DNA of 37,625 nucleotides from contig NZ_LMDG01000004.1 of the NCBI RefSeq assembly GCF_001426265.1, forward strand, positions 109,324 through 146,948. Reading direction: 5' to 3'. The notes below the pieces were generated by a model. The model did not search any database. It had not been told where the DNA came from and worked only from the letters and a program-made list of their open reading frames with translations. Below are positions 2,458-27,024 of the stretch, piece by piece. Positions within the stretch are counted from its first letter, which is position 1. Each line of letters starts with the position of its first letter. The position numbers and the translations under genes are program-made. The stretch is from Rhizobium sp. Root1220. GTDB taxonomy: Bacteria > Pseudomonadota > Alphaproteobacteria > Rhizobiales > Rhizobiaceae.

Positions 2458-4407
2458 CTAGTTCGGTTCAGGCGAAGCCGGAACTTCAGCACCCTCACCA
2501 CGCTGTTGAAACCTGTTTTGCCCGACGCAAGAGGTCATATCCGGCCGACGAAACCAGATCGCGCGGCCGCATCGCAATGGCGCATTGCCCGCCGTGAAGA
2601 CGATCTGCTCGTCGGCGCGCATGCGCAGGACTTCATGCGGCTGGATGAGCTGCCTCGAGGCAAGCTGTTTCGAACGTGTCCGAGACGATCCGCGCGATTG
2701 AAAACTGCGGCTGACCTGGTCGATTTCGACCGTCGTCGTGCCGCATCGACGCGAGATATAGTCGGCGGTTTCCGGGTCGTTGATGGCGGCAAAAGAGATC
2801 CAGCTGGCGCTCTCGAACCATTTGCTGGACGCATCACGTCCGCCATAGGTTTCCCGCAGCTGGCCGATTGACTGGTAGATCATCGTCAGCGTGATGCCAT
2901 ATTTTCGTCCGGCATCACGCGCCGTCTCCAGCACCCGCATGTAGCCAAGTCTTGCGACCTCGTCGAGGAGAAACAGTGCACGGCCTTTGATCGCTCCATC
3001 CCGATTGTAGATTGCGTTGAGGAAGGAGCCGATGATGACGCGCGCGAGGCCGGAATGCGTCTCCAATGTCTTGAGGTCGATGTTGATGAAGACGTCGGTC
3101 TCGCCGTCGGCCAGCGCTTCGGTGGAGAAGCTCGAGCCCGACACCAGGGCGCCGTAGTTCGCATAGCTTAGCCAATGCGTTTCCTTGATCGCATTGGCGT
3201 AGACGCCGGAGAATGTCTCCGGCGTCATGTTGACGAAGGCGGCGACATTCTCCTTCACGAAGGCGGACGCGGAGTTGTCGTAGATCTCCTGCAGGCGCGC
3301 GCGAAGCTTTGGCTCTGGCTCCGACAGGTTCGCGCGAACCTGCCTTAAAGTCTGGTGTTTAGCGTCCGTGTGGCCGGAGAGGCAAACGTCGGCGATCATC
3401 GCGGTCAGTAGCTGTAGACCGGATGAACGAAAAAAGTCATCGCGGACGCCGGTCGCACGACCGCTATCGCTCATGATCCATGATGCGACGGCCGCGATGT
3501 CCTCTTCTTTGGTGGCGCCATGACGACCGATCCAGTCGAGGGCGTTGAAGCCAGAACCAGCGTTCTTCGGGTCGAGGACGATGACGTGCCGGCGCGCTTT
3601 GCGCCGGTGCTCCACCACCATCGGCGCCACCTCATTGGACGGATCAAGCACGATGAGCGAGCCGCCCCATTTGAGAGCGGTCGGGACTGTCACCGACGTC
3701 GTCTTGAAACCACCCGAACCGGCGAAGACGATCCCGTGCGACGAGCCGAACGAGCCGTCGAAACACAAGAGCGGCGCGGAGCCACCCTTGCCCCAGGTCG
3801 TCGGCTCGCCCGGTCGAAACGACGTCGCCGCCGGATCGTCCCGGTCGACACGATAACGCTCGCCGATGACGATACCGCCCGTACGGGCAAAGAGCTTCTC
3901 CGCCTCCTGCATCGTCATCCAGTCTGCCTCGCCGTGCAAGGCGCGCTTGCCACGAATGCGTCGCGGCTCGCTTCGTGTAAACGCGGCATTGCCCATTCTC
4001 GCAACACGCAGCGCGAAGAGTGTCACGAGCAGTGCTGCGCCCGCTCCTGCGATGGTCGAAGGATCGGCATAGGACAGAAGCGTCCTTCCCGCGGGGACCT
4101 GCCCGGCAAACGCCAGCAGGCGCGATCCCTCCCTGATCGCTGCGACGACGATCACGCCGAGGCCGCCTGCTGAGACGCTCCAACCGGCCGCCTTGACGTT
4201 GATCGACCCCCTCGTTCCGAACAGAAACATCATCCCGCAGGCGCCAGCGAGCGCATAGGGCAATGCCAGCCCAATCCGCCCGAGCATCAGCTTTGCCTGC
4301 TCGGTCGTTCCGAACGCGGCGAGCCACCGTTCGATGCCGGGGAAGATCAAACAAACGGCGATCATGGCAACGGCCAAAATGGCAACAAGGATCTTCCTAG
4401 GCGTCAT
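2458..4407 (-). CDS. traG: TraG, type IV secretion coupling protein (VirD4 family)
   Basis: A 649-aa coupling ATPase that docks the TraA relaxosome to the Trb channel at the inner membrane. The N-terminus carries several membrane helices within residues ~1-135 ([37 protein letters not shown], others). Walker [10 protein letters not shown] lies at ~230-238 and Walker [12 protein letters not shown] with Asp-Glu at ~482-483; [18 protein letters not shown] is the usual VirD4 motif after it. The ATG at 4407 overlaps the end of traD by 11 nt and gives the family N-terminus [11 protein letters not shown]; an in-frame GTG at 4434 is a less likely start. Length matches Ti-type TraG. Confidence 0.96.
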
Positions 4408-4609
4408 CGGCAAATGCCCTCGCTCCGAGTTCACTCAGGCGGGTTCGCTCCGCCTCGTCAGACTTCATCCGAGCGCTGGCATCGATTAGAAGCCCGAGCA
4501 GCAGCGCACGTTTCTCGTAGCGCAAGCCCGCCTTGACGATCAGGCCGCCGAGCTCGATCTTCTCCCGCGCGTCCTTCTTGCGGGCTTCAGTCGCTGTCAT
4601 CTTTTGCAT
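4397..4609 (-). CDS. traD: TraD, relaxosome accessory protein
   Basis: A 70-aa protein ([20 protein letters not shown]...) with the [21 protein letters not shown] core characteristic of the Ti/Sym-plasmid TraD family, ending FADDA. TraD works with TraC and TraA at oriT. It lies 4 nt after traC and overlaps traG by 11 nt, so the three genes are one operon reading away from oriT. The start could be the ATG at 4609 (used here) or 4600. Size matches the family (about 71 aa). Confidence 0.93.
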
Positions 4610-5151: not shown

Positions 5152-8100
5152 GTGGCGGTCCCGCATTTCTCAGTCAGCATCGTTGCCCGCGGCTCCGGCC
5201 GCAGCGCCGTGCTGTCGGCGGCCTACCGGCATTGCGCCAAGATGGAGTTCGAGCGGGAAGCCAGGACGATCGACTACAGCCGCAAGCAAGGGCTGCTGCA
5301 TGAGGAGATCGTCATTCCCGAGGACGCACCGGAATGGCTGCGGGAGATGATTGCCGATTGCTCGGTCTCCAGCGCCTCGGAAGCCTTCTGGAACAAGGTC
5401 GAGGCCTTTGAGAAACGGAGCGATGCGCAGCTCGCCAAGGATGTGACCATTGCCCTGCCGATCGAGCTGACCGCCGATCAGAATATCGCGATGGTTCGCG
5501 ATTTTATCGAGCAGCACATCACCGCCAAAGGCATCGTCGCCGATTGGGTGTTTCACGATGCTCCCGGCAATCCGCATATCCACCTGATGACCACTTTGCG
5601 GCCGCTGACCGAGGACGGGTTCGGCGCCAAGAAGGTCGCGGTCTTGGGCGCTGACGGCAATCCTGTTCGTAACGATGCGGGCAAGATCGTCTACGAGCTT
5701 TGGGCCGGCGGAGCCGAGAACTTCAACGCGTTCCGCGACGGATGGTTTACGATCCAGAACCAGCATCTGGCGCTGGCGGGTCTCGATATCCGTGTGGATG
5801 GCCGCTCCTTCGAGAAGCAAGGGATCGAGTTGACACCGACAATTCATCTCGGCGTCGGGACGAAGGCGATCGAACGGAAAGGCGACGCTGCGGAGGAGAA
5901 GGTCTCACTCGAGCGGCTGGAGCTGCAGGAAGAACGCCGCGCCGAGAATGCACGGCGTATCCAGCGCAATCCGGAGATCGTGCTGGACCTCATCACCCGC
6001 GAAAAGAGCGTCTTCGAGGAACGCGATATCGCCAAGGTCCTCTACCGCTATATCGACGATGCTGCGCTCTTCCAGAACCTGATGGCGCGGATCCTGCAGA
6101 GCCCGCAGACGCTGCGGCTTGACCGTGAGCGCATGGATTTCGCCACCGGCGTCAGGGCAGCGGCAAAATACACGACGCGGGAGCTGATCCGCCTTGAAGC
6201 GCAGATGGCCAATCAGGCGATCTGGTTGTCGCAGCGATCCTCTCACGCCGTCAAGTCGGCGGCCCTGAATGGTGTCTTCTCTCATCATGACCGCCTGTCG
6301 GACGAGCAGAAGAATGCGATCGATCATGTCACTGGTCCGGAGCGGATCGCCGCCGTGATCGGGCGCGCCGGCGCTGGCAAGACGACGATGATGAAGGCGG
6401 CGCGCGAAGCCTGGGAGACGGCCGGCTATAGGGTGGTCGGCGGCGCGCTTGCGAGCAAGGCTGCAGAAGGACTTGAGAAGGAAGCCGGTATCGCCTCCCG
6501 TACGCTATCGGCCTGGGAGCTCCGATGGGATCAGCAGCGAGACCGACTTGATGACAAGACCGTCTTCGTCCTCGACGAGGCCGGCATGGTCTCGTCCCGG
6601 CAGATGGCACGCTTTGTCGAAGCGGTCACGGCATCAGGTGCGAAGCTCGTCCTGGTCGGCGATCCCGAGCAGCTTCAGCCGATCGAAGCTGGTGCTGCCT
6701 TCCGCGCCATTTCCGAGCGGATCGGCTATGCAGAACTCGGGACGATCTACCGCCAGCGCGAACAATGGATGCGCGATGCTTCCCTTGATCTCGCGCGTGG
6801 GAACGTCTCGGCTGCACTCGACGCTTACGTACAGCGGGATATGGTGCGGACCGGTTGGACAAGGGGCGATGCGATCACGTCCTTGATCGCCGATTGGGAC
6901 CGCGAATACGATCCGGCCAAGGTGACCCTGATCTTGGCCCATCGCCGTGTCGATGTGCGGCTATTGAACGAGATGGCGCGCGGCAAGCTGTTAGAACGAG
7001 GTGTGATCGAGGCCGGTCATGCGTTCAAGACGGAAGACGGGACGAGGCATTTTGCGGCTGGCGATCAGATCGTCTTCCTGAAGAATGAGGGATCACTCGG
7101 CGTCAAGAACGGCATGCTGGCGCGGGTCATCGAGGCGCAGCCTAGGCGCATCGTGGCCGAGACCGGCACCGGCGAAGGCCGGCGTCAGGTCGTAGTCGAA
7201 CAACGTTTTTACACCAATGTCGATCACGGCTATGCCACCACGGTCCACAAGAGCCAGGGTGCCACCGTCGACCGCGTCAAGGTGCTGGCGTCGAGCACGC
7301 TGGACCGGCATCTCTCCTATGTCGCCATGACCCGTCACCGCGAGACGGCGGAGCTCTATGTCGGGCTGGAAGAGTTCGCGCAACGGCGCGGCGGCGTGCT
7401 GATCGCCCATGGCGAAGCGCCCTACGAACACAAGCCCGGCATCCGAGACAGCTACTACGTGACGCTTGGCTATGCCGATGGCCAGGAGCGCACCGTCTGG
7501 GGCGTCGATCTCGCGCGGGCGATGGATGAATCGAAAGCCGAGATCGGTGATCGCATTGGCTTGAAACACGTCGGATCGCAGCGCGTCACGCTTCCCGACG
7601 GCAAGGAGGTCGATCGGAATTCCTGGAAGGTCGTGCCGATCGAGGAGTTGGCGATGGCTCGGCTCCATGAGCGGCTTTCGCGTTCCGGATCGAAGGAGAC
7701 GACGCTCGATTACCAGGACGCCTCGCACTATCGCGCGGCGCTGCGATTTGCCGAGGCACGTGGCCTCCATCTCATAAACGTCGCCCGCACGATCGCGCAC
7801 GATCAGATCCAATGGACCGTCCGCCAATCGTCAAAACTCGCCGAGCTGGGCGCACGCCTTGCCGCCATTGCGACAAGGCTCGGCCTTGGCGGAACGAAGT
7901 CGACCGCATCGACAACATCTGCAATCAAGGAGGTAAAACCCATGGTCTCAGGTACGACGACCTTCCCCAGATCGATCGCTCAGGCGGTCGAAGACAGGCT
8001 CTCGGCCGACCCCGGCCTGAAGGACCGCTGGCAGGAGGTTTCCGCTCGCTTCCATTACGTCTTTGCGGATCCGCAGGCAGCCTTCAAGGCGGTCAATGTC

Positions 8101-8733
8101 GACGCCATGCTGACGAATGAGACGGTAGCAGCAACGACGCTTATGCGGATTGCGGAGCGGCCGGAAAGCTTCGGCGCGCTGAAGGGCAAGACCGGTCTGT
8201 TTGCCGGCAGCACCGAGAAGCAGGCGCGCGATACAGCAATCCTCAACGCGCCAGCCCTTGCCCGCGATCTGCAGGGCTTCATCGCGCAACGCGCGGAGGC
8301 TACCAGCCGCTATGAGGACGAGGAGCGCGCGGTCCGCACCAAGCTCTCGCTCGACATCCCTGCCCTCTCCGCATCGGCAAAGCAGGTGCTCGAGCGCGTG
8401 CGCGATGCGATCGATCGAAACGATATCCCTGCCGGTCTCGAGTTTGCCCTCGCGGACAAGATGGTGAAGGCCGAGCTCGAAGGTTTCGCCAAGACTGTGT
8501 CGGAGCGCTTCGGAGAGAGAACCTTCCTGACACTCGCGGCAAAGACTGCGGACGGCAAGGCGTTCGAGGTAGCATCCGCGGGTATGCAGCCGGCCCAGAA
8601 GAACGAACTACGTTCCGCCTGGGACACGATCCGCACCGTTCAGCAACTGGCTGCGCATGAACGGACAGCGGTGGCGCTCAAGCAGGCGGAAACCATGCGC
8701 CAAACCCAGACGAAAGGGTTGTCGCTGAAATGA
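5152..8733 (+). CDS. traA: TraA, conjugative relaxase-helicase (MobQ type)
   Basis: An 1193-aa relaxase that nicks oriT and unwinds the transferred strand. N-terminal MobA/MobL relaxase: MAVPHFSVSIVARGSGRSAV..AAYR with candidate catalytic Tyr25, and the histidine motif NPHIHLMTT at ~140-148. A RecD/TrwC-like helicase follows: Walker A GRAGAGKTT at ~404, Walker B VFVLDEAGM at ~472, VGDPEQLQPI, and the late motifs TTVHKSQGATVD and YVAMTRHR. The C-terminal ~250 residues (from ~930) have the position and character of the BID-like secretion domain known in rhizobial TraA, ending in a polar tail. Start is GTG at 5152 with AGGAG at 5135-5139. It overlaps traF by four bases (ATGA). It is somewhat longer than Ti TraA (about 1100 aa). 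Confidence 0.96.
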   Translation: MAVPHFSVSIVARGSGRSAVLSAAYRHCAKMEFEREARTIDYSRKQGLLHEEIVIPEDAPEWLREMIADCSVSSASEAFWNKVEAFEKRSDAQLAKDVTIALPIELTADQNIAMVRDFIEQHITAKGIVADWVFHDAPGNPHIHLMTTLRPLTEDGFGAKKVAVLGADGNPVRNDAGKIVYELWAGGAENFNAFRDGWFTIQNQHLALAGLDIRVDGRSFEKQGIELTPTIHLGVGTKAIERKGDAAEEKVSLERLELQEERRAENARRIQRNPEIVLDLITREKSVFEERDIAKVLYRYIDDAALFQNLMARILQSPQTLRLDRERMDFATGVRAAAKYTTRELIRLEAQMANQAIWLSQRSSHAVKSAALNGVFSHHDRLSDEQKNAIDHVTGPERIAAVIGRAGAGKTTMMKAAREAWETAGYRVVGGALASKAAEGLEKEAGIASRTLSAWELRWDQQRDRLDDKTVFVLDEAGMVSSRQMARFVEAVTASGAKLVLVGDPEQLQPIEAGAAFRAISERIGYAELGTIYRQREQWMRDASLDLARGNVSAALDAYVQRDMVRTGWTRGDAITSLIADWDREYDPAKVTLILAHRRVDVRLLNEMARGKLLERGVIEAGHAFKTEDGTRHFAAGDQIVFLKNEGSLGVKNGMLARVIEAQPRRIVAETGTGEGRRQVVVEQRFYTNVDHGYATTVHKSQGATVDRVKVLASSTLDRHLSYVAMTRHRETAELYVGLEEFAQRRGGVLIAHGEAPYEHKPGIRDSYYVTLGYADGQERTVWGVDLARAMDESKAEIGDRIGLKHVGSQRVTLPDGKEVDRNSWKVVPIEELAMARLHERLSRSGSKETTLDYQDASHYRAALRFAEARGLHLINVARTIAHDQIQWTVRQSSKLAELGARLAAIATRLGLGGTKSTASTTSAIKEVKPMVSGTTTFPRSIAQAVEDRLSADPGLKDRWQEVSARFHYVFADPQAAFKAVNVDAMLTNETVAATTLMRIAERPESFGALKGKTGLFAGSTEKQARDTAILNAPALARDLQGFIAQRAEATSRYEDEERAVRTKLSLDIPALSASAKQVLERVRDAIDRNDIPAGLEFALADKMVKAELEGFAKTVSERFGERTFLTLAAKTADGKAFEVASAGMQPAQKNELRSAWDTIRTVQQLAAHERTAVALKQAETMRQTQTKGLSLK

Positions 8734-11084: not shown

Positions 11085-11144
11085 GTCTGATTTGGGCGGC
11101 AAAAACATAGCTTTCCCGATTTCTGCCGGGTAAGCTCAGTGCCA

Positions 11145-11951
11145 ATGACCACACCTCCCGAATATCACCTGTTTATCGACGACACCGGCAGCCGAGATCC
11201 CGACCATGAGCTTCCTCAACAGCGAAAGGACGGCATGGATTGCTTCGGCTTGGGTGGGTTCCTGATCAAGCAAGAAGATATCGGTGAACTGAAGGTGCGA
11301 CACACCGAATTCTGCGCTCAGCATGGGATCGACTACCCCCTGCACTCGCACAAAATTCGTGGCGGTCGCGGAGATTTTGGTTGGCTAAGGAATCCTGAGA
11401 AGGCGCGGCTCTTCTTTCCGGAACTCGACGCATTTATACTCTCCCTGCCCGTGATTGGGATTGCAGCCGTCATCGATCGACCGGGGTATGTCTTGCGGTA
11501 TCGCGAGAAATATCAGGAACGACTGTGGCTGATGTGTAAAACCGCCTACTCGATCCTCATTGAGCGGGCGGCAAAGTTCGCCGATAGTCAGGGCCGGACC
11601 CTTCGGGTTTTCTTCGAGGCGAGCGGCAAACACGAAGACCGGGATCTGATGACCTATGCCAAGGCGCTCAAGGCCGACGGAATGCCATTCGCGGGCGACG
11701 GCGCAAATGCCTATGGCTCGCTTCCTCCAGAGGAATTCCGGCGGATCGTCAGAGGTGAACCCAAGCGCCGGACCAAGGAGGCGGCGATGATGCAGGTCGC
11801 TGACCTGATGCTCTATCCGATGGCCAAGGGTGGATATGATCCCACCTACAAGCCCTATGTCGATCTCATCAGGTCGGGCAAACTGATCGACTCGCTGGTT
11901 CCCGAACAGGACCGGTCGAGCCTCGGAATCAAATACAGCTGCTTCAAATGA
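11145..11951 (+). CDS. DUF3800 domain protein
   Basis: A 268-aa protein with the N-terminal acidic motif YHLFIDDTG, a central VFFEASGKHEDRDLMTYA, and a C-terminal MMQVADLMLYPMAKGGYD, the layout of DUF3800 proteins, which are predicted metal-dependent RNase H-fold nucleases with conserved early and late acidic residues. A GTG at 11139 is an alternative start. It follows traH after 60 nt on the same strand and is followed by a terminator hairpin at 11955-11972, so it may be the last gene of the traAFBH transcript. DUF3800 genes are often found in mobile and defence-related regions; its role here is unknown. Confidence 0.85.
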   Translation: MTTPPEYHLFIDDTGSRDPDHELPQQRKDGMDCFGLGGFLIKQEDIGELKVRHTEFCAQHGIDYPLHSHKIRGGRGDFGWLRNPEKARLFFPELDAFILSLPVIGIAAVIDRPGYVLRYREKYQERLWLMCKTAYSILIERAAKFADSQGRTLRVFFEASGKHEDRDLMTYAKALKADGMPFAGDGANAYGSLPPEEFRRIVRGEPKRRTKEAAMMQVADLMLYPMAKGGYDPTYKPYVDLIRSGKLIDSLVPEQDRSSLGIKYSCFK

Positions 11952-12123: not shown

Positions 12124-13119
12124 TCAATAGAGAAACCGTTTCAAACTCAGGCCCGCATGCAGGATGTACGGCAGCCGTCCAAGGGAATAGTGGCCACAAT
12201 TCAGCTTCAAGATCTGTGGTCGGCCACCGTCGTTCTTCAAGCTGGACAACAGGCTCTCCGAGATCGCTGGCATCACAACCTTGTCTCTTCTGGCCAAGAC
12301 CATCTGGATATCGAGCTCCGCCCGCGCCAAACGACGCGTGTAGTTTTCGAGATTGAGTGGACCCCATGCTCTCCTGAGATCTGCCAGCTCGATCTCATGC
12401 TCCAGGCTGTTGCGGATAGTTCGTGTGGCGCGACCCGTCCAAACCATATCCGCAAGGCTCCCCCCTGGTAGAAACAGCGAAGCCTTCGAAACGCTCAGAT
12501 CATGGGCGGCAATCAATCCTGCGACCCAAGATCCAAGGCTCATGCCCAGGACGGAGATTTCTTGGTAGCCTTCACCCTTCAGCCAGCCGATGAGTTTTTT
12601 TCCATCACACACTGCCTGCTTCACCGCTTGGATCGTACGACCAAGATTGGCGCTCAACATGTAATCCGCGTGCAATGAGCCGGGACGGCTACGCTCGAGG
12701 TGATAAGGCATCGCGATCTCGACGACCGTGATCCCGCGCCGTGACATAAAGCCGGCAATTTGCGCGTTTCGAGCCCGTGCATTCCAATGGTGAAAAATCA
12801 CGAGTGCCTTGCGGAGGGATCCACTTCTGGTGATCTTCGCCCAGACGATATTATTCTCAGCGACATCGGTGGATATATCCGAGCGGAATTTAATCCAATC
12901 CTCGTTCACCTCGAACCGTTGATTGCCGCGATTTGGCTCATCAAAAAACCCAGGGTCAACCGACGCTTCATCCGCGCGGACACAAAATTCGGAAATGCTC
13001 TCGATCTTCTCACCGGGAAAGGCACGGTCGGCATCCAGAATGAAACGCGTCGCCTCCTTGCCGTCTTCACCGCGTCGCGCCCGCTGTTCATCCCACTGAT
13101 CAAGCCACCTAAGATACAA
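12124..13119 (-). CDS. rcgR: Alpha/beta hydrolase, RcgR-like (putative conjugation inhibitor)
   Basis: A 331-aa alpha/beta hydrolase. ALVIFHHWNARARNAQIAGF gives the beta-strand/oxyanion region, LGMSLGSWVAG the nucleophile elbow with Ser194, ARRDKVVMP the acid Asp279 and LNCGHYSLG the His310, so the catalytic triad is intact. No signal peptide, so it is likely cytoplasmic. The start appears to be TTG at 13119 (a stop lies just upstream in frame), overlapping the membrane-protein gene by 11 nt. From memory, rcgR encodes a hydrolase-like inhibitor of conjugation next to rcgA on rhizobial plasmids, and has been suggested to be a lactone hydrolase. The symbol is given by context and fold, without alignment; a generic esterase is the alternative. 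Confidence 0.62.
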   Translation of the reverse strand: MYLRWLDQWDEQRARRGEDGKEATRFILDADRAFPGEKIESISEFCVRADEASVDPGFFDEPNRGNQRFEVNEDWIKFRSDISTDVAENNIVWAKITRSGSLRKALVIFHHWNARARNAQIAGFMSRRGITVVEIAMPYHLERSRPGSLHADYMLSANLGRTIQAVKQAVCDGKKLIGWLKGEGYQEISVLGMSLGSWVAGLIAAHDLSVSKASLFLPGGSLADMVWTGRATRTIRNSLEHEIELADLRRAWGPLNLENYTRRLARAELDIQMVLARRDKVVMPAISESLLSSLKNDGGRPQILKLNCGHYSLGRLPYILHAGLSLKRFLY

Positions 13120-14734
13120 TTTGCTTGGTTCCTACTTCACTGGATCGCCCTCTACCTAGGCCAGGTTCAATCAGGCTGAACACCGCGACGACCACAGCGA
13201 TAGCCAAAAGGATTGAGAATCCCACGAACGCGTCGATCAGCAGGTATGCGGCAAACAGCAATGTCACGACCGCCGCCATCGTCCACAGCGGTTTATGCAA
13301 TCGCCCACCGATAGCGCGGATCGAGATTGAACCGTAGACAAAAACGACGATGGTCGAAAGGGCGACAAGCAGGCTGCTGTAGTGGGTGGGCATGCGATAG
13401 TGGAACCCATTGCTCGCAGCATCGCGGCCAGCCAGCACTGAAGTGAAATCCCCGGCCAGCCAGTCGAGGATGTTTCTGGCGTTCGATGTCAGATAGGAAC
13501 TCTGAGCCTTCATGCACAACGCGACGAGAAGACCGAGGATTGTGCAGCGGAATAAACCGCGCATTAGTCTCAGGCACAGCTTGTACACTTCGCCTCGGGA
13601 CCTAGTTTGATGATGGGCCGCCGCGTCCAGGCCAATTTTCCTGAAGTCGTGGATCATCGTGTACAGCAGAATGAGCCCGGCGAAAAATAGATAGAAGCAC
13701 AGGCACATGTAGAGGTAAGCGAGCGCAGTGAACACGATCGCCGCCGGGACCGAAATGACCTCCGGCCGCACAATTGCCAGCGTACCCCAGCTTGTAGCGT
13801 AGTCGGCTCCGCCTTTTAGTAACGGGATTAGGCAAACGCCAATCCATTGGAAAACACCGGCGAACAACACGCAGATCAGGAAAACTGCCCAGTAGGACAA
13901 GGAGGAAGCCTGCACCTGGCTAGCCCATCCATCGTCGCGGGTGCTCGTGTGGCTCCACGTCCACAGCTTCAGGCGTGCCTCTCCTGTCCAAAAGGCGAGC
14001 AGTTCGGCTACAAGTGCGAAAAACAGTGGCAAGAGCACCATGAAAAGGATGGTCCAATTCGGAGCCCAAAGAAATCCAACCTCTTTCGCGACATTGTCCG
14101 CGCGCAGGTAAATGGCGCTGTGGATCCCAACCATATAGGAAAGGAAGCCGAGAGCGGAGGCGCCGGCAAACACAGCCGCGGGCAAGTTCAGCGGAGAGCC
14201 GCCGCTAAAAAACGCCTCCGATCTTCTCGCTAGACTGAGGCGCGGTACGTTCCGAACGTCACCGGGTTCTGGTTCTGTATGGGGCGTGGGCTCGACCGAT
14301 GACAAGGTCTCATGGTCAACTTGGGGGTCAGGTGATGGATCTGGACGTTCTGGCGCATGGCCATCTATCTTTTTCGCCTCCCGTCTCTTGGCCTGCAGTC
14401 GTGCCTGGGCCGCACTTAGCTCCACCTGCCAAGCCGCCGTTGATTCCGGATCATCACATCCAAAAACCCTCGCAAGCCAGCGGATATTCGCCGAGCTAAC
14501 TCCCCTGTCGTTTTCCTGAAACCAAAGCTGAACAGTCCTCAGATCAACCCCAACGCGGTTCGAATCTATCTGTGAGATCGCGTCGGCAAGCAGCTCTGGC
14601 GTCCAAGGGCCGGCTGGAAACCCGTCTTCACCGATTGCTCTGCCTGCGCCCGCCGCAGCCAGTTTCTTGAATAATTCCTTCCAGTCACTACCGTCATTGG
14701 GTGGAGGCAGAAATAATTTCCCGTTCTGAAACAA
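13109..14734 (-). CDS. rcgA: Multi-pass membrane protein with DNA-binding-like N-terminus, RcgA-like
   Basis: A 541-aa protein in two parts. Residues ~15-125 are soluble and look helical, with a possible HTH-like segment (VGVDLRTVQLWFQENDRGVSSANIRWLARVFG), followed by a Pro/Glu-rich linker (~126-165). Residues ~184-525 hold about eight or nine membrane helices, for example 226-249, 279-305, 328-360, 397-412, 452-471 and 483-522. The start seems to be TTG at 14734. It is divergent from traR (268-bp gap) and overlaps the hydrolase. Position among conjugation genes, hydrolase partner and membrane nature fit RcgA, reported as essential for transfer of certain rhizobial plasmids. This is inference from memory and context, not alignment. 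Confidence 0.6.
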   Translation of the reverse strand: MFQNGKLFLPPPNDGSDWKELFKKLAAAGAGRAIGEDGFPAGPWTPELLADAISQIDSNRVGVDLRTVQLWFQENDRGVSSANIRWLARVFGCDDPESTAAWQVELSAAQARLQAKRREAKKIDGHAPERPDPSPDPQVDHETLSSVEPTPHTEPEPGDVRNVPRLSLARRSEAFFSGGSPLNLPAAVFAGASALGFLSYMVGIHSAIYLRADNVAKEVGFLWAPNWTILFMVLLPLFFALVAELLAFWTGEARLKLWTWSHTSTRDDGWASQVQASSLSYWAVFLICVLFAGVFQWIGVCLIPLLKGGADYATSWGTLAIVRPEVISVPAAIVFTALAYLYMCLCFYLFFAGLILLYTMIHDFRKIGLDAAAHHQTRSRGEVYKLCLRLMRGLFRCTILGLLVALCMKAQSSYLTSNARNILDWLAGDFTSVLAGRDAASNGFHYRMPTHYSSLLVALSTIVVFVYGSISIRAIGGRLHKPLWTMAAVVTLLFAAYLLIDAFVGFSILLAIAVVVAVFSLIEPGLGRGRSSEVGTKQIVS

Positions 14735-15002
14735 TCGATTACCAGTTCTGATTTCGTTTCGTTTCGCGGCACTTCATATTACATCGTGCCAAATCACTCA
14801 ATCACCCTTTATCGAATTCAGGTTGGATATATTTCGCATAAACGCATAGCGCGTGGTCGACATGCGCAAACAAATGAATCAACCCCAGGACGAGTTGGCG
14901 TGTGTCGTCAACGTTAGTCCAAGGGGGCAAGAGCGTCCAGGTCTGCCGATGTTGCCATGATGCACGGTACCGGGGAACCAGCACTGAATGGAGGGGATTT
15001 AC

Positions 15003-15707
15003 ATGAACCAACTCGTCGCAGGGCTTTTGGAGATCGGTGCTGTCGCACATGATGATGCAACGCTGAAGACCGCATTGGCCGATCTGGCAAAACGGTTCGA
15101 GTTTACGGGTTACGACTACGCCAAGCTGCTCCCAGGCGACTTTTCCGTGATATCAAACCTATCGCCTGATTGGCTGAAACGCAGCAGGAAATTCGACGTG
15201 GAGCGCCGCCATCCAATCATGAAGCGAGCCCAACAAATCCGTCGCGTCTTTGTATGGTCTGCTAAGGAAGAACAGGGGACGATTCCGGAGGAAAACAAAA
15301 TCTTCTATGAAACGGCATCGCAATTCGGGATCCGGTCAGGCATCACCTTTCCCATCGCAATTTCTAACGGCGGAATTTCAGTGCTCAGCTTCGTCTCGCC
15401 GAAAGAGGTCCTGCGAGGTTGGGAGGAAGTCGATCCAATCGCCGCATCGTCTGCGGTTGGTCAGCTGCACGCCCGCATTGAACAGATAAATGTAATGCCA
15501 TCGATCCAGCAACCGTTCTATCTCTCGCCGAAGGAGGCGACGTACGCTCGGTGGCTTGCTCTTGGCAAAACGGTAGAAGACACAGCCAAGATTGAGGACG
15601 TCAAATACAACACCGTCCGAATTGCGCTCGCGGACGCCAGGCGCCGCTATGACCTTTGTAACAACACGCAGCTTGTGGCTCTGGCAATCCGACGGGGCAT
15701 GATCTGA
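15003..15707 (+). CDS. traR: TraR, LuxR-type conjugation regulator with altered AHL pocket
   Basis: A 234-aa protein, exactly the length of Ti TraR and collinear with it. N-terminal autoinducer domain (FTGYDYAKL, ASQFGIRSGITFPIAISNGG) and C-terminal LuxR HTH (LSPKEATYARWLALGKTVEDTAKIEDVKYNTVRIALADARRR, ALAIRRGMI) closely resemble TraR. Of the pocket residues, Trp57, Pro71, Trp85 and Gly113 are kept, but position 53 is Leu, 61 is Ser and 70 is His in place of the invariant Asp. ATG at 15003 has GGAGGGGA just upstream. Its stop abuts the traM stop. It should activate the promoters at 4956-4973 and 26720-26737; whether it needs an AHL is open. No AHL synthase gene is seen. Confidence 0.93.
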   Translation: MNQLVAGLLEIGAVAHDDATLKTALADLAKRFEFTGYDYAKLLPGDFSVISNLSPDWLKRSRKFDVERRHPIMKRAQQIRRVFVWSAKEEQGTIPEENKIFYETASQFGIRSGITFPIAISNGGISVLSFVSPKEVLRGWEEVDPIAASSAVGQLHARIEQINVMPSIQQPFYLSPKEATYARWLALGKTVEDTAKIEDVKYNTVRIALADARRRYDLCNNTQLVALAIRRGMI

Positions 15708-16007
15708 TCAGACTTCCGGCGTCCGCCCCAGAATGTTGACAAGCGTTGTGAGTGCGCACATCTGCGCGTGCATTTCGATTGTCGCTTCCAGATATGCTAC
15801 ATGCGCATCGCTTGGGTGTTTATCGACCAGCAGACCGTCAGGGTGGGCGATTCGAAACAGCCTTTCTGCACGGTCGACCAGGGTTCGGTGTTTCTTGATC
15901 GCATCGACCGTCAGGCCTTCGATCACTTGCTCGGGCTCGTTCGAGAGCAATCCCACAATCGGCCGTAAGTCGATGTCCGACGTCATGTCATTTCTCTCGT
16001 GATCCAT
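15708..16007 (-). CDS. traM: TraM, TraR antiactivator
   Basis: A 99-aa protein with LRPIVGLLSNEPEQVIEGLTVDAIKKHRTLVDRAERLF and the C-terminal hallmark YLEATIEMHAQMCALTTLVNILGRTPEV, which matches the TraM family of Ti and rhizobial plasmids. TraM binds TraR and blocks DNA binding, setting a threshold for transfer. It is convergent with traR, and the two stop codons meet inside a TCTGATCAGA palindrome. The start may be the ATG at 16007, which gives the family length, or at 15986, which has a GAGAGA site. The same traR-traM adjacency occurs on Ti plasmids. Confidence 0.92.
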   Translation of the reverse strand: MDHERNDMTSDIDLRPIVGLLSNEPEQVIEGLTVDAIKKHRTLVDRAERLFRIAHPDGLLVDKHPSDAHVAYLEATIEMHAQMCALTTLVNILGRTPEV

Positions 16008-17097: not shown

Positions 17098-18396
17098 TTA
17101 ACCCCGGTAGTTTCCTGGGAAAATAATGTCTTGATCAACGAGCACATTGAACCTGTATCCTGGCCTGATCTTGATCGTTGGCTGGACATTGAGGTTTTTG
17201 GAGATTGTCTGTTCCGCAACCCTTCCAAAAGTCTCGGCAAAATTCCGACGTGCCGCGTCTGAGGCTGTGTCCTGCGTTGCAAGAGTCGAGCTCTCAGGCA
17301 TCGACATGTCAATCCCCGTCCCGATCAGCGCGACCAGCGCGGCCGACCCGAACGTCCGGATGTAGTGGTTATCGACCCTGTCGTTGAAACCGCCGTTGCC
17401 CTCCGAGTCTGTCCCAGCCATGCCGCCGATCTGAAGGGTCGAGCCATTTGGGAAGATGATGTCGGTCCAGACGACGAGAACGCGGTTCTGCCCGAATGAC
17501 ACCTTGCTGTCGTATCGGCCAAGAAGCTTTGTGCCTTGTGGCACGAGTGTGTAGTGGCCGGTCGCGCTGTCATAAACGTTCTGGCTGATCTGGGCCGTGA
17601 TACGGCCCGGCAAGTCGGAGTTGATGCCGGTGATTAGCGTCGCGGGTATCACCGATCCACGTTTGAGCTCGTAGGGTGATTGCTGTGGCACGACCTGATT
17701 GGGCAAATAGCCGAGATCCTTGATATCGGCGTTGAAGAAATCTTCCTTGGACGTTTGTCCATTCTGGTCGACCTGACCCGCAGCGCCCGCTCTCAACGCT
17801 TCGGTATAGAGATCTTGCGCGCCGCTCGACGCGGTGTTCGATTGACGCGCTCCGGCAGACTGAGCGACCGGCGAGTGTGCCGAGACATCTGACATGTCGA
17901 CCTTCAGCGGCGAATCGAGAGCCGCCCCCCTCGCCTGCAGGCTTGCCATGCGCTGGCGTTGCTGTTCGCGGAAGATCTGTTCTCGTTGTTCGCGAAGCAT
18001 TCTGGCATTCCACTCCTCGTCCGATTCCATGCGAGACCTACTGGGCTGCCGTGGTTCAACCTTTGGTTCTGCCTCGACGTGACGAGCGGCTTCCTGCTGC
18101 TGCGTAACAGGAGTTGGTTGGAACACCGGCTGCTGTTCCTCCCGGTCACCGATAATGCCATCCTTGACACCCCGCTTAAGCTGATCGGCGAAGGTCGAAG
18201 CCGGCGTGCCGGAACCGCCATCATTCGGGTCGTGCTGACCAAATCTGAGCCCACGCGAGGAAAGGCCGTAGACCAGAACGGCGAGGAACAGAACGAGGAT
18301 ACCGATACCGACGAACAGAGGCACGCGATTGAGGCGCTTCATCCCTTTGTCGTCAGCCGATTGATTTGACGTTCCCAGTTGCAGCGATTGGACCAT
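17098..18396 (-). CDS. trbI: TrbI, VirB10-like channel protein
   Basis: A 432-aa protein with a short cytoplasmic N-terminus, one membrane helix (~25-45, VPLFVGIGILVLFLAVLVYGL), a long Pro/Gln/Arg-rich periplasmic linker and a C-terminal VirB10/TrbI domain (ELKRGSVIPATLITGINSDLPGRITAQISQNVYD, then LVPQGTKLLGRYDSKVSFGQNRVLVVWTDIIFPNG), ending VLVDQDIIFPGNYRG. It spans the envelope and links the inner-membrane ATPases to the outer-membrane core of the mating channel. Last of the eleven trb genes; GGAGA precedes the ATG. Confidence 0.95.
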   Translation of the reverse strand: MVQSLQLGTSNQSADDKGMKRLNRVPLFVGIGILVLFLAVLVYGLSSRGLRFGQHDPNDGGSGTPASTFADQLKRGVKDGIIGDREEQQPVFQPTPVTQQQEAARHVEAEPKVEPRQPSRSRMESDEEWNARMLREQREQIFREQQRQRMASLQARGAALDSPLKVDMSDVSAHSPVAQSAGARQSNTASSGAQDLYTEALRAGAAGQVDQNGQTSKEDFFNADIKDLGYLPNQVVPQQSPYELKRGSVIPATLITGINSDLPGRITAQISQNVYDSATGHYTLVPQGTKLLGRYDSKVSFGQNRVLVVWTDIIFPNGSTLQIGGMAGTDSEGNGGFNDRVDNHYIRTFGSAALVALIGTGIDMSMPESSTLATQDTASDAARRNFAETFGRVAEQTISKNLNVQPTIKIRPGYRFNVLVDQDIIFPGNYRG

Positions 18397-25313: not shown

Positions 25314-25701
25314 GACGCCCCTCCCCTCCCCCGACGCGATTTCCATTCGGGACCGCGGTTTGTTCGGCGACAAACGAGCCGCCGATTGAAGCGCCGGTCG
25401 AGCCGAAGAGGCCGACGATCGTCGTCGCTCCAAGCAGGATCCCTGCGACCAGCACCACGTACACCAATCGGCGTGCGAAATCGTTGAGCTCGCCGCCGAA
25501 GATCAGCATGCCGCCGGCAATCGCGACGGCGGCGAGAGCAATATAGCCGGCGACCGGTCCAGTGATGGATTGCTGGATCTGCTCGAGCGGGCCCTCCCAC
25601 GGCAGGCTTCCGCCGCTTGAACCTGCAAGGGCTGGTCCAGCAAGCGAGGCGCAAAGCAATGCGCCAATAATTCCCAAACGGAGAGAGCGATTATGCTGCA
25701 T
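25306..25701 (-). CDS. trbC: TrbC, prepilin of the conjugative pilus (VirB2-like)
   Basis: A 131-aa prepilin: signal peptide up to [10 protein letters not shown], then a mature part with two hydrophobic helices ([23 protein letters not shown] and [22 protein letters not shown]) separated by ELNDFARR, the VirB2/TrbC signature. The Gly-rich C-terminus is probably removed when TraF cyclises the pilin. It overlaps trbB by 11 nt and trbD by 8 nt. Confidence 0.95.
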
Positions 25702-26656
25702 GACTGTCCTCGTCGATCTGCGGATAGTGTTCTGTCTGGTAGCGCGAGCCGTTGAACCCCTCGACGTGGAGGACCTCCCTCACCCGGCGTCCCCGCCCGG
25801 CGCGTTCGATCGAGATGACGAGATCAACCGCCTCGCCAATCACGGCTTGCATCGGCTGCTGGCTGGCCTCCGATGTCAGTTGCTCAAGGCGTCGAAGCGC
25901 CGACATGGCGGAGTTGGAATGGATGGTTGTGACGCCTCCGGGGTGTCCTGTGTTCCAGGCCTTCAGCAAGGTCAGTGCGGCGCCGTCACGAACCTCGCCA
26001 ACGATGATGCGGTCGGGACGCAGCCGCATCGTGCTCTTGAGAAGGCGGGCCATGTCGATCGCGTCGCTCGTGTGAAGGCAGACGGCGTTCTCCGCGGCGC
26101 ATTGGATTTCGGACGTGTCCTCGAGGATCACCATCCTGTCTTGCGGCACGGCCGAAACGATTTCGGCGATGACCGCGTTCGCGAGCGTCGTTTTGCCTGA
26201 GCCCGTCCCGCCGGCGATAACGATGTTCAATCGATCAGCAATGGCGCTGCGGATGATCGACGCCTGCGCTTCCGTCATGATCTTCGCGGTCACGTAGTCG
26301 TCGAGGGGAACAAGCCGAGACGCGCGCCGGCGGATCGTGAAGGTCGGCGAATTGACGACAGGAGGCAAAAGACCTTCGAAGCGGTGGCCACCGATCGGCA
26401 ATTCACCGGAGATGATTGGTCGTTCGCCATCGGCTTCGGACTGGAGAGCGTGCGCGACCGACCCAATAACGGTCTCAGCTGCGGTCGCCATCATTTCGCC
26501 GGCTGGCGCAACGCCGTGACCTAGGCGCTCGATGAAGAGCTTGCCGTCTGGATTGAGCATGATCTCGACGACTGTTGGGTCCTCAAGGGCAATGCAAAGG
26601 TGTTCGCCGAGGGCGTCCTGGAGTTTGCGGACAAGGCGGGAGTGCGACTGAAGCAT
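25691..26656 (-). CDS. trbB: TrbB, VirB11-like traffic ATPase
   Basis: A 321-aa hexameric ATPase of the VirB11 family. It contains [20 protein letters not shown], the Walker [15 protein letters not shown] at ~148-160, [38 protein letters not shown] (Walker B and His box) and ends [13 protein letters not shown] at 26656 starts [17 protein letters not shown] as in the family; an upstream reading adds non-homologous residues. First gene of the trb operon. In Ti plasmids traI precedes trbB, but here the space up to repA holds no AHL synthase. Confidence 0.96.
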
Positions 26657-26719
26657 GGGTGAGCTCGTCTCCTCGTTTGAGTTCAGGAGGAGACAGACCT
26701 CGGTGGCCACGCAAAGTCC

Positions 26720-26737
26720 ACGTGCAATATTGCACCT
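26720..26737. promoter_or_regulatory. tra-box-like palindrome (putative TraR site II)
   Basis: ACGTGCAATATTGCACCT is an 18-bp dyad, perfect except at the second position pair, and closely matches the palindrome at 4956-4973. Its centre is 72 nt upstream of the trbB ATG, fitting a -42 activator site with a leader of about 30 nt. It lies between divergent trbB and repA, where Ti plasmids place TraR boxes that drive both trb and repABC. The rest of the 368-bp gap (26657-27024) shows no gene; it must contain the repA promoter. Confidence 0.8.
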
Positions 26738-27024
26738 CGCGAGTCGCGGCCGATTCCGTCAGGCTCGCTTCGATTCGGTGACCTGGCGGCTCGTTCCGCT
26801 ATCGAAGCGGACTTTGAATCACAGGAAAGATTAACAGGGAGATTGAACCGTATGATCGGTAAATCGCTGGAATCTAAGCGCTAGTAGCGTTTGCGTCGGA
26901 AATGGCCGTTTTGCGTTAAGGCTTTGTTAACTTTAAAAATCTTGCAAAATGAGCTGGAATGAGTTGTCTTATCCACGGCAAAAAGATGTATTTACGAAAT
27001 TTACCGTGTGTACGAGAGGACGTT

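Follow-up and report, generated by a model that had tools for sequence, protein, structure and literature searches.

Organization of the transfer region

The window, by which we mean the whole stretch of 37,625 nucleotides from Rhizobium sp. Root1220 that was analysed, is a segment of a repABC plasmid whose transfer genes follow a Ti-like order, namely traG-D-C, traA-F-B-H, rcgR, rcgA, traR, traM, trbI to trbB and repABC, with repA at position 26959, beyond trbB (Table 1). The names of the tra and trb genes were assigned from the order of the ORFs in comparison with the annotated plasmid pRL8 and locus L055, and those confirmed by Pfam are TraH, TraR and TraM only. Because rcgA, rcgR and traM stand beside traR, we assign the window to the rhizobial plasmid group I-C. 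The traR ORF is intact, is preceded by GGAGGGG, and encodes a protein with the layout typical of the LuxR family, i.e. an autoinducer-binding domain and a C-terminal HTH region, the latter recognized in residues 170–234 by a structure match to GerE-type domains (in the Pfam search PF00196 stayed below the reporting level at a cut-off of 1e-3). TraR is the textbook example of a LuxR protein whose folding depends on its ligand, a requirement that Zhu and Winans are said to have described in 2001. The list of fold matches to the window protein also contains the LuxR-type domain of VqsR, a protein that is not known to bind AHLs. The traM gene, convergent to traR, was detected by Pfam, and the combination of the TraR fold with a traM gene is as in the systems of Ti-type TraR.

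Table 1. Coordinates of traR and of the other features located in the window
Feature	Coordinates	Strand	Basis
traG, coupling protein, Dtr region	2458..4434	-	ORF; position in comparison with pRL8
Predicted tra box AGGTGCAACGTTGCACCT, perfect palindrome, gap between traC and traA	4956..4973		Pattern match
traA, relaxase, Dtr region	5152..8733	+	ORF; position in comparison with pRL8
rcgR, published as alpha/beta hydrolase, overlaps rcgA	12124..13119	-	Homology to same-slot group I-C genes
rcgA, published as membrane protein, divergent from traR	13109..14734	-	82% identical to the same-slot pRL8 gene
Conserved 69-bp element, rcgA end of the rcgA-traR intergenic region	14735..14803		Identity across loci
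traR, LuxR-type activator, 234 aa	15003..15707	+	PF03472, 57.9 bits
traM, TraR antiactivator, convergent with traR	15708..16007	-	PF09228, 95.3 bits, E 3.3e-27
trbI, last gene of the Mpf operon	17098..18396	-	ORF; position in comparison with pRL8
trbB, first gene of the Mpf operon	25691..26710	-	ORF; position in comparison with pRL8 and L055
Predicted tra box ACGTGCAATATTGCACCT, upstream of trbB, slot of traI in Ti plasmids	26720..26737		Pattern match

Each of the Dtr and Mpf operons is preceded by a predicted tra box of 18 bp. The variant box was first noticed by eye and later recovered by a script, and with two mismatches allowed the pattern is expected to occur 0.01 times in the window. Seven group I-C plasmid loci span about 25 kb or more. 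In six of them both places have a single box, and the seventh (L051) has two boxes at the first place and a flank without annotated trb genes. The Ti tra box differs from these: its consensus has no match in the window within three mismatches, and a Ti-type tra box was ruled out at that level. In front of traR itself the best match found in the rcgA-traR intergenic region (nine loci) covers 9 of 14 positions; since this is no convincing tra box, positive autoregulation of traR is unsupported here.

A DUF3800 gene (11139–11951) lies between traH and rcgR. The same slot holds a DUF3800 gene, 88–97% identical, in 3 of 14 other group I-C loci (some of them too short to include the slot), and different hypothetical genes in several others. 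Beyond traG, two minus-strand ORFs (1286–2235) take the place that the thermonuclease and WGR genes have in pRL8, a correspondence by position only. In pLPU83a, thermonuclease and WGR genes were raised in an rcgR mutant (PMC13055273).

The autoinducer pocket of TraR

In the window protein we read Leu53, Trp57, Ser61, His70, Pro71, Trp85 and Gly113, which corresponds to the motif W-S-H-P-W-G, compared with the W-Y-D-P-W-G (W57, Y61, D70, P71, W85, G113) of AHL-responsive Ti-type TraR, plus the Leu at position 53. This second reading bears out the sequence-only reading of the locus, according to which W57, P71, W85 and G113 are retained and L53, S61 and H70 are changed. None of the alignment registers that we tried gives Tyr61 or Asp70, which rules out a shifted alignment as the origin of their absence. 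In fold, length, C-terminal DNA-binding half and possession of a TraM partner the protein resembles Ti TraR (1l3l, 1h0m), to which it is ~41% identical; unlike the window protein, Ti TraR keeps Y53, Y61 and D70 and has a cognate TraI.

TraR sequences for a wider comparison were gathered from plasmid records, genomes and a protein search and thinned at 97% identity to 165; of the 201 rows that reached 200 aa, 36 were removed as near-copies. TraR was matched in 642 plasmid records, of which 20 were fetched, including 10 of the 17 at 60% identity or more; the genomes were searched with E-value cut-offs of 1e-25 (family level) and 1e-60 (genus level), and the protein search supplied the best 120 of 166 matches. 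One traR gene split by an insertion element (L056) was omitted. Asp70 is missing from 27 of the 165 proteins, being replaced by Asn in 17 and by His in 10. All 27, the window protein among them, have Leu53 and lack Tyr61, with Ser (23), Lys (2), Arg (1) or Cys (1) in its stead; P71, W85 and G113 are present in every one of them and W57 in 26. Each of the remaining 138 proteins has D70, Y61, P71, W85 and G113, and 136 also have W57. Identity to the window TraR is at least 62.7% for the D70-less proteins and at most 57.7% for those with D70. The pocket, which had at first been taken as peculiar to the window protein, is thus a trait common to a whole plasmid group, and plasmids of this kind can be spotted by the motif W (once R), then S/K/C/R, N/H, P, W, G.

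The phylogenetic tree, which has long branches and SH-aLRT support only, comprises 159 rows and was built before the last genus-level loci were collected; 25 of 184 rows were left out (two short fragments and 23 rows more than 97% identical to another). Its 23 D70-less rows form one side of a single branch with support 100 and length 0.44. The sister group consists of eight rows with D70 and Y61 and with either Leu or Phe at position 53, the support being 82 for its own node and 96 for the node that joins it to the D70-less clade. Judging from this one quick tree, the loss of Tyr53 seems to have come first, followed on one branch by that of Asp70, Tyr61 and Gln58.

Distribution of AHL synthases

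The host genome (5,746,584 bases in 37 contigs, 99.38% complete) contains no LuxI-type gene detectable with PF00765, whereas the same search was positive in 43 of 61 genomes, the window's genome being one of the 61. A traI elsewhere in the genome is thereby ruled out as far as LuxI-type synthases are concerned, and a LuxI-type synthase, which would be the cognate partner of an AHL-responsive TraR, is absent. The sequence-only reading had noted that no traI-like gene precedes trbB and had proposed a genome-wide search for LuxI homologues; the ORFs agree with the former, as no synthase gene lies in the 248-base gap that separates trbB from repA, and the latter returned no match. Apart from traR, three LuxR-type genes were found in the same LuxI-less genome, on contigs C36, C2 and C33 (L002–L004), with products 26–28% identical to TraR.

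LuxI is absent throughout nine of the ten group I-C plasmid records fetched, all nine with an unsplit traR; the tenth, from Rhizobium sp. T1473, has LuxI and a split traR. We dropped the generalization that group I-C plasmids have no LuxI, since at three places (T1473, G467:C60 and G509:C44) a LuxI gene shares the contig with traR, at a great distance from it. In T1473 the traR gene is split by a transposase of the IS630 family (L056, 14611–16468), and rcgA, rcgR, traM and most trb genes are still present.

TraR was detected at E ≤1e-60 in 18 genomes of the genus, four of which (the window's, G548, G521 and G032) lack LuxI, and G032 has a TraR with D70, yet no LuxI in its genome. The D70 TraRs of pNCHU2750c, G118 and G032 have no synthase on their plasmid or in their genome, so that the D70-less clade is not alone in lacking one. 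At 44 other TraR places from the family-level search, LuxI is on the same contig in 31 cases (1.4 to 112 kb from traR), on another contig in 12, and missing from the genome in one. Genome G028 harbours both kinds of TraR (G028:C20 and G028:C23; L107 and L113), one of group I-C with N70 and rcgAR and one with D70 and a LuxI gene 2.4 kb off (start to start), and offers a natural internal control.

The rcgA, rcgR and traM genes

The gene order of the window at rcgR, rcgA and traR matches the order published for group I-C (PMC9601222). The products of the two rcg genes are 69–86% identical to those of the same-slot genes of pRL8 and pSmeSM11b, and, in comparison with contig G467:C60, the identity is 83% for RcgA (over residues 1–353 only) and 84% for RcgR. 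In our first set of loci TraM adjoins traR in 14 group I-C loci besides the window's, and rcgA and rcgR accompany the group I-C traR at 10 of 10 plasmid loci (T1473 included; the rcgA match of L054 is in pieces) and at 4 of 4 genome loci. A second set, in which several places repeat the first, has TraM next to traR in 13 of 13 loci, rcgA in 12 and rcgR in 11, the two without rcgR being L103, at a contig end, and G509. The group I-C traR of G509 has neither rcgA nor rcgR alongside, and rcgR is absent from the entire G509 genome; the statement that rcgAR is always present in group I-C was dropped on this account.

At 16 D70 loci the sequence reaches 1.9 kb or more upstream (L006, L057–L065, L108–L113), and none of them shows an intact rcgA or rcgR. 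At one of them (L108, 4372–4843) a remnant of rcgR with stop codons, without any rcgA match, occupies the same slot beside a traR of the sister group that encodes D70 and F53. This single remnant suggests that rcgAR predates the loss of Asp70. An rcgR apparently split in two frames occurs at G507:C7:51752–52743, far from the D70 traR of that genome.

RcgR has a GMSLG elbow and a putative catalytic triad of S194, D279 and H310, which is invariant in all 17 aligned copies, including that of the window. Three of these copies come from loci whose visible 4-kb flanks contain no traR (L073–L075), and one rcgR locus among them is beside virB genes, as published for a second group of plasmids, without traR. 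The 69-bp element next to rcgA in the rcgA-traR spacer is 91–100% identical over 53–69 bp in 39 locus records, a number that includes the window's own record and many duplicates. Parts of it (GCACGAT and CGAAACGAAACGAAA) precede rcgA also in L073 and, in a more changed form, in L074, where no traR is found in the flanks seen, and for this reason the element may be an operator or leader of rcgAR.

Selection on traR and its neighbours

For traR, the median dN/dS of the N-terminal and C-terminal domains is 0.128 and 0.052 among 12 distinct group I-C genes, 0.124 and 0.040 among 13 Ti-like genes, and 0.085 and 0.026 in a second control group of eight D70 genes. After exclusion of saturated or near-identical pairs, the N-terminal values are based on 64 of 66 pairs in group I-C, 58 of 78 in the Ti-like set and 19 of 28 in the second control. 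Since the N-terminal value of group I-C is near that of the Ti-like genes, the ligand domain is retained as strictly as in that set and is not decaying, and the constraint on it may be somewhat weaker than in the second control. Of 20 pocket positions, 12 do not vary among the 12 group I-C copies, compared with 87 of 162 for the N-terminal domain; from invariance and dN/dS, neither a stronger conservation nor a stronger relaxation of the pocket relative to its domain is clear. Medians for the neighbouring genes are 0.151 for TraM (16 copies), 0.136 for RcgR and 0.142 for RcgA.

Comparison with pLPU83a

The AHL-unresponsive TraR, group I-C and the RcgA/RcgR pair have already been published. Transfer of pLPU83a from Rhizobium favelukesii needs TraR yet ignores AHLs, RcgR lowers traR expression, and deletion of traM has no effect (PMC13055273); the plasmid is described as having no traI in its transfer region. 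Contig G467:C60 has 151,687 bp, the published size of pLPU83a (PMC9048898). The published traR deletion made use of EcoRV sites that delimit an internal fragment of 439 bp (PMC13055273), and this pair of sites is present in the traR of G467:C60. It occurs in 15 of 107 traR loci (duplicate fetches counted), all of them 77–80% identical to the window TraR; ten were typed at position 70 and have Asn, and the other five (L081, L082, L083, L085 and L093) are second fetches of typed places. The window traR has one of the two sites only. From the matching length and digest pattern we infer that G467:C60 is probably pLPU83a.

If this identification is correct, the TraR of pLPU83a is 78% identical to that of the window over 234 aa and belongs to the same D70-less set (its row is outside the 159-row tree). 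It shares L53 and the absence of Y61 and D70, and has rcgA, rcgR and traM alongside; its traR reads SNLHPERLKRRRKLDLDRRNPIMK, giving L53, R57, R61 and N70, as opposed to W57, S61 and H70 in the window protein. A second difference is a LuxI-type gene (G467:C60:50925–51449) about 90 kb from traR (L105), or nearer the other way if the contig is circular, whereas the window's genome has none. Judged by its TraR, its neighbouring genes and a traR without traI in the transfer region, the window plasmid is a new addition to group I-C. Our comparison would mean that in an essential TraR deafness to AHLs is accompanied by a dismantled AHL site. As for the pocket residues, no statement about them was found in the literature searched, i.e. 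the available portions of PMC9601222 and PMC13055273; the 2019 paper that defined the groups (10.1016/j.plasmid.2019.03.004) is outside that scope.

A TraR that probably works without AHL

The sequence-only reading proposed that TraR of the window is not an ordinary AHL receptor, and that it may answer another ligand, be independent of ligand, or depend on a pair like RcgA and RcgR. The first proposal gains support from the clade-wide loss of D70 and Y61 and from the AHL-deafness of pLPU83a, and the pair was rightly suspected, as both genes adjoin traR; what did not stand is the singularity of the pocket, and traM had been overlooked. Among the three options we favour the absence of a ligand together with control by RcgR. 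The window TraR, devoid of Asp70, Tyr61 and Tyr53, probably folds and activates transfer without AHL, under the control of RcgR and perhaps of TraM. Its N-terminal domain would fold round its own side chains and serve dimerisation, perhaps also contact with TraM; apo-TraR would dimerise without AHL, bind the two predicted tra boxes and turn on traA/traC and trb. The level of TraR would be set through RcgR-dependent repression of traR, perhaps with some trimming of TraR by TraM, and the decision to transfer would be made via the amount of TraR; repression and decision are published for pLPU83a and predicted here. Given the loss of three pocket residues and the absence of LuxI from the genome, the switch likely works without the usual signal.

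The retention of W57, P71, W85 and G113 indicates a non-random change of the pocket, which would also suit a different ligand. We regard it as unlikely that the pocket has been retuned to some other small molecule of the cell, the recipient or the plant, with a ligand still needed and possibly destroyed or altered by RcgR. Such a retuning would agree with an N-terminal domain about as constrained as in Ti-like TraRs, with the persistence of these four residues in nearly all D70-less proteins and with the putative hydrolase triad in every aligned RcgR; in PMC9601222 it is proposed that RcgR hydrolyses a signal, and altered motifs are known from LuxR receptors of non-AHL signals (PMC4414361). 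However, W57 is also lost in the published working case, if G467:C60 is pLPU83a, and RcgR has the same triad at the three loci with no traR in their 4-kb flanks. PluR and PauR, LuxR-type receptors with an altered W-Y-D-P-W-G motif and without a cognate synthase (PMC4414361), keep the Tyr and the Asp and have the other four residues changed, which is the reverse of the D70-less clade. A signal swap in the narrower sense, in which the L53/L58/R62/N-or-H70 pocket binds a non-AHL molecule that is destroyed by the hydrolase RcgR, is less probable again; if true, donor plasmids would respond to a cue that is private or comes from the recipient, with RcgR as its quencher.

We find it improbable that TraR of the window is a solo receptor of relaxed specificity that answers the AHLs of other bacteria. 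The fold and most of the pocket are retained, and with three other LuxR-type genes the host may listen to others, but D70, Y61 and Y53 are jointly absent from the whole sampled group, and pLPU83a is published as having no AHL response (PMC13055273). Decay of traR with loss of function is very hard to believe, for in spite of the lost pocket residues and of the IS630-family element in the related T1473 gene, the median dN/dS is 0.05–0.13 by domain, the C-terminal domain and the tra boxes are retained, and TraR is essential in pLPU83a (PMC13055273).

Loss of the pocket residues throughout the clade would explain, at the level of sequence, why pLPU83a needs its AHL-unresponsive TraR and yet ignores AHLs. 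The D70-less clade, which is under selection, would provide ready-made proteins for studying a receptor that has been freed from its signal.
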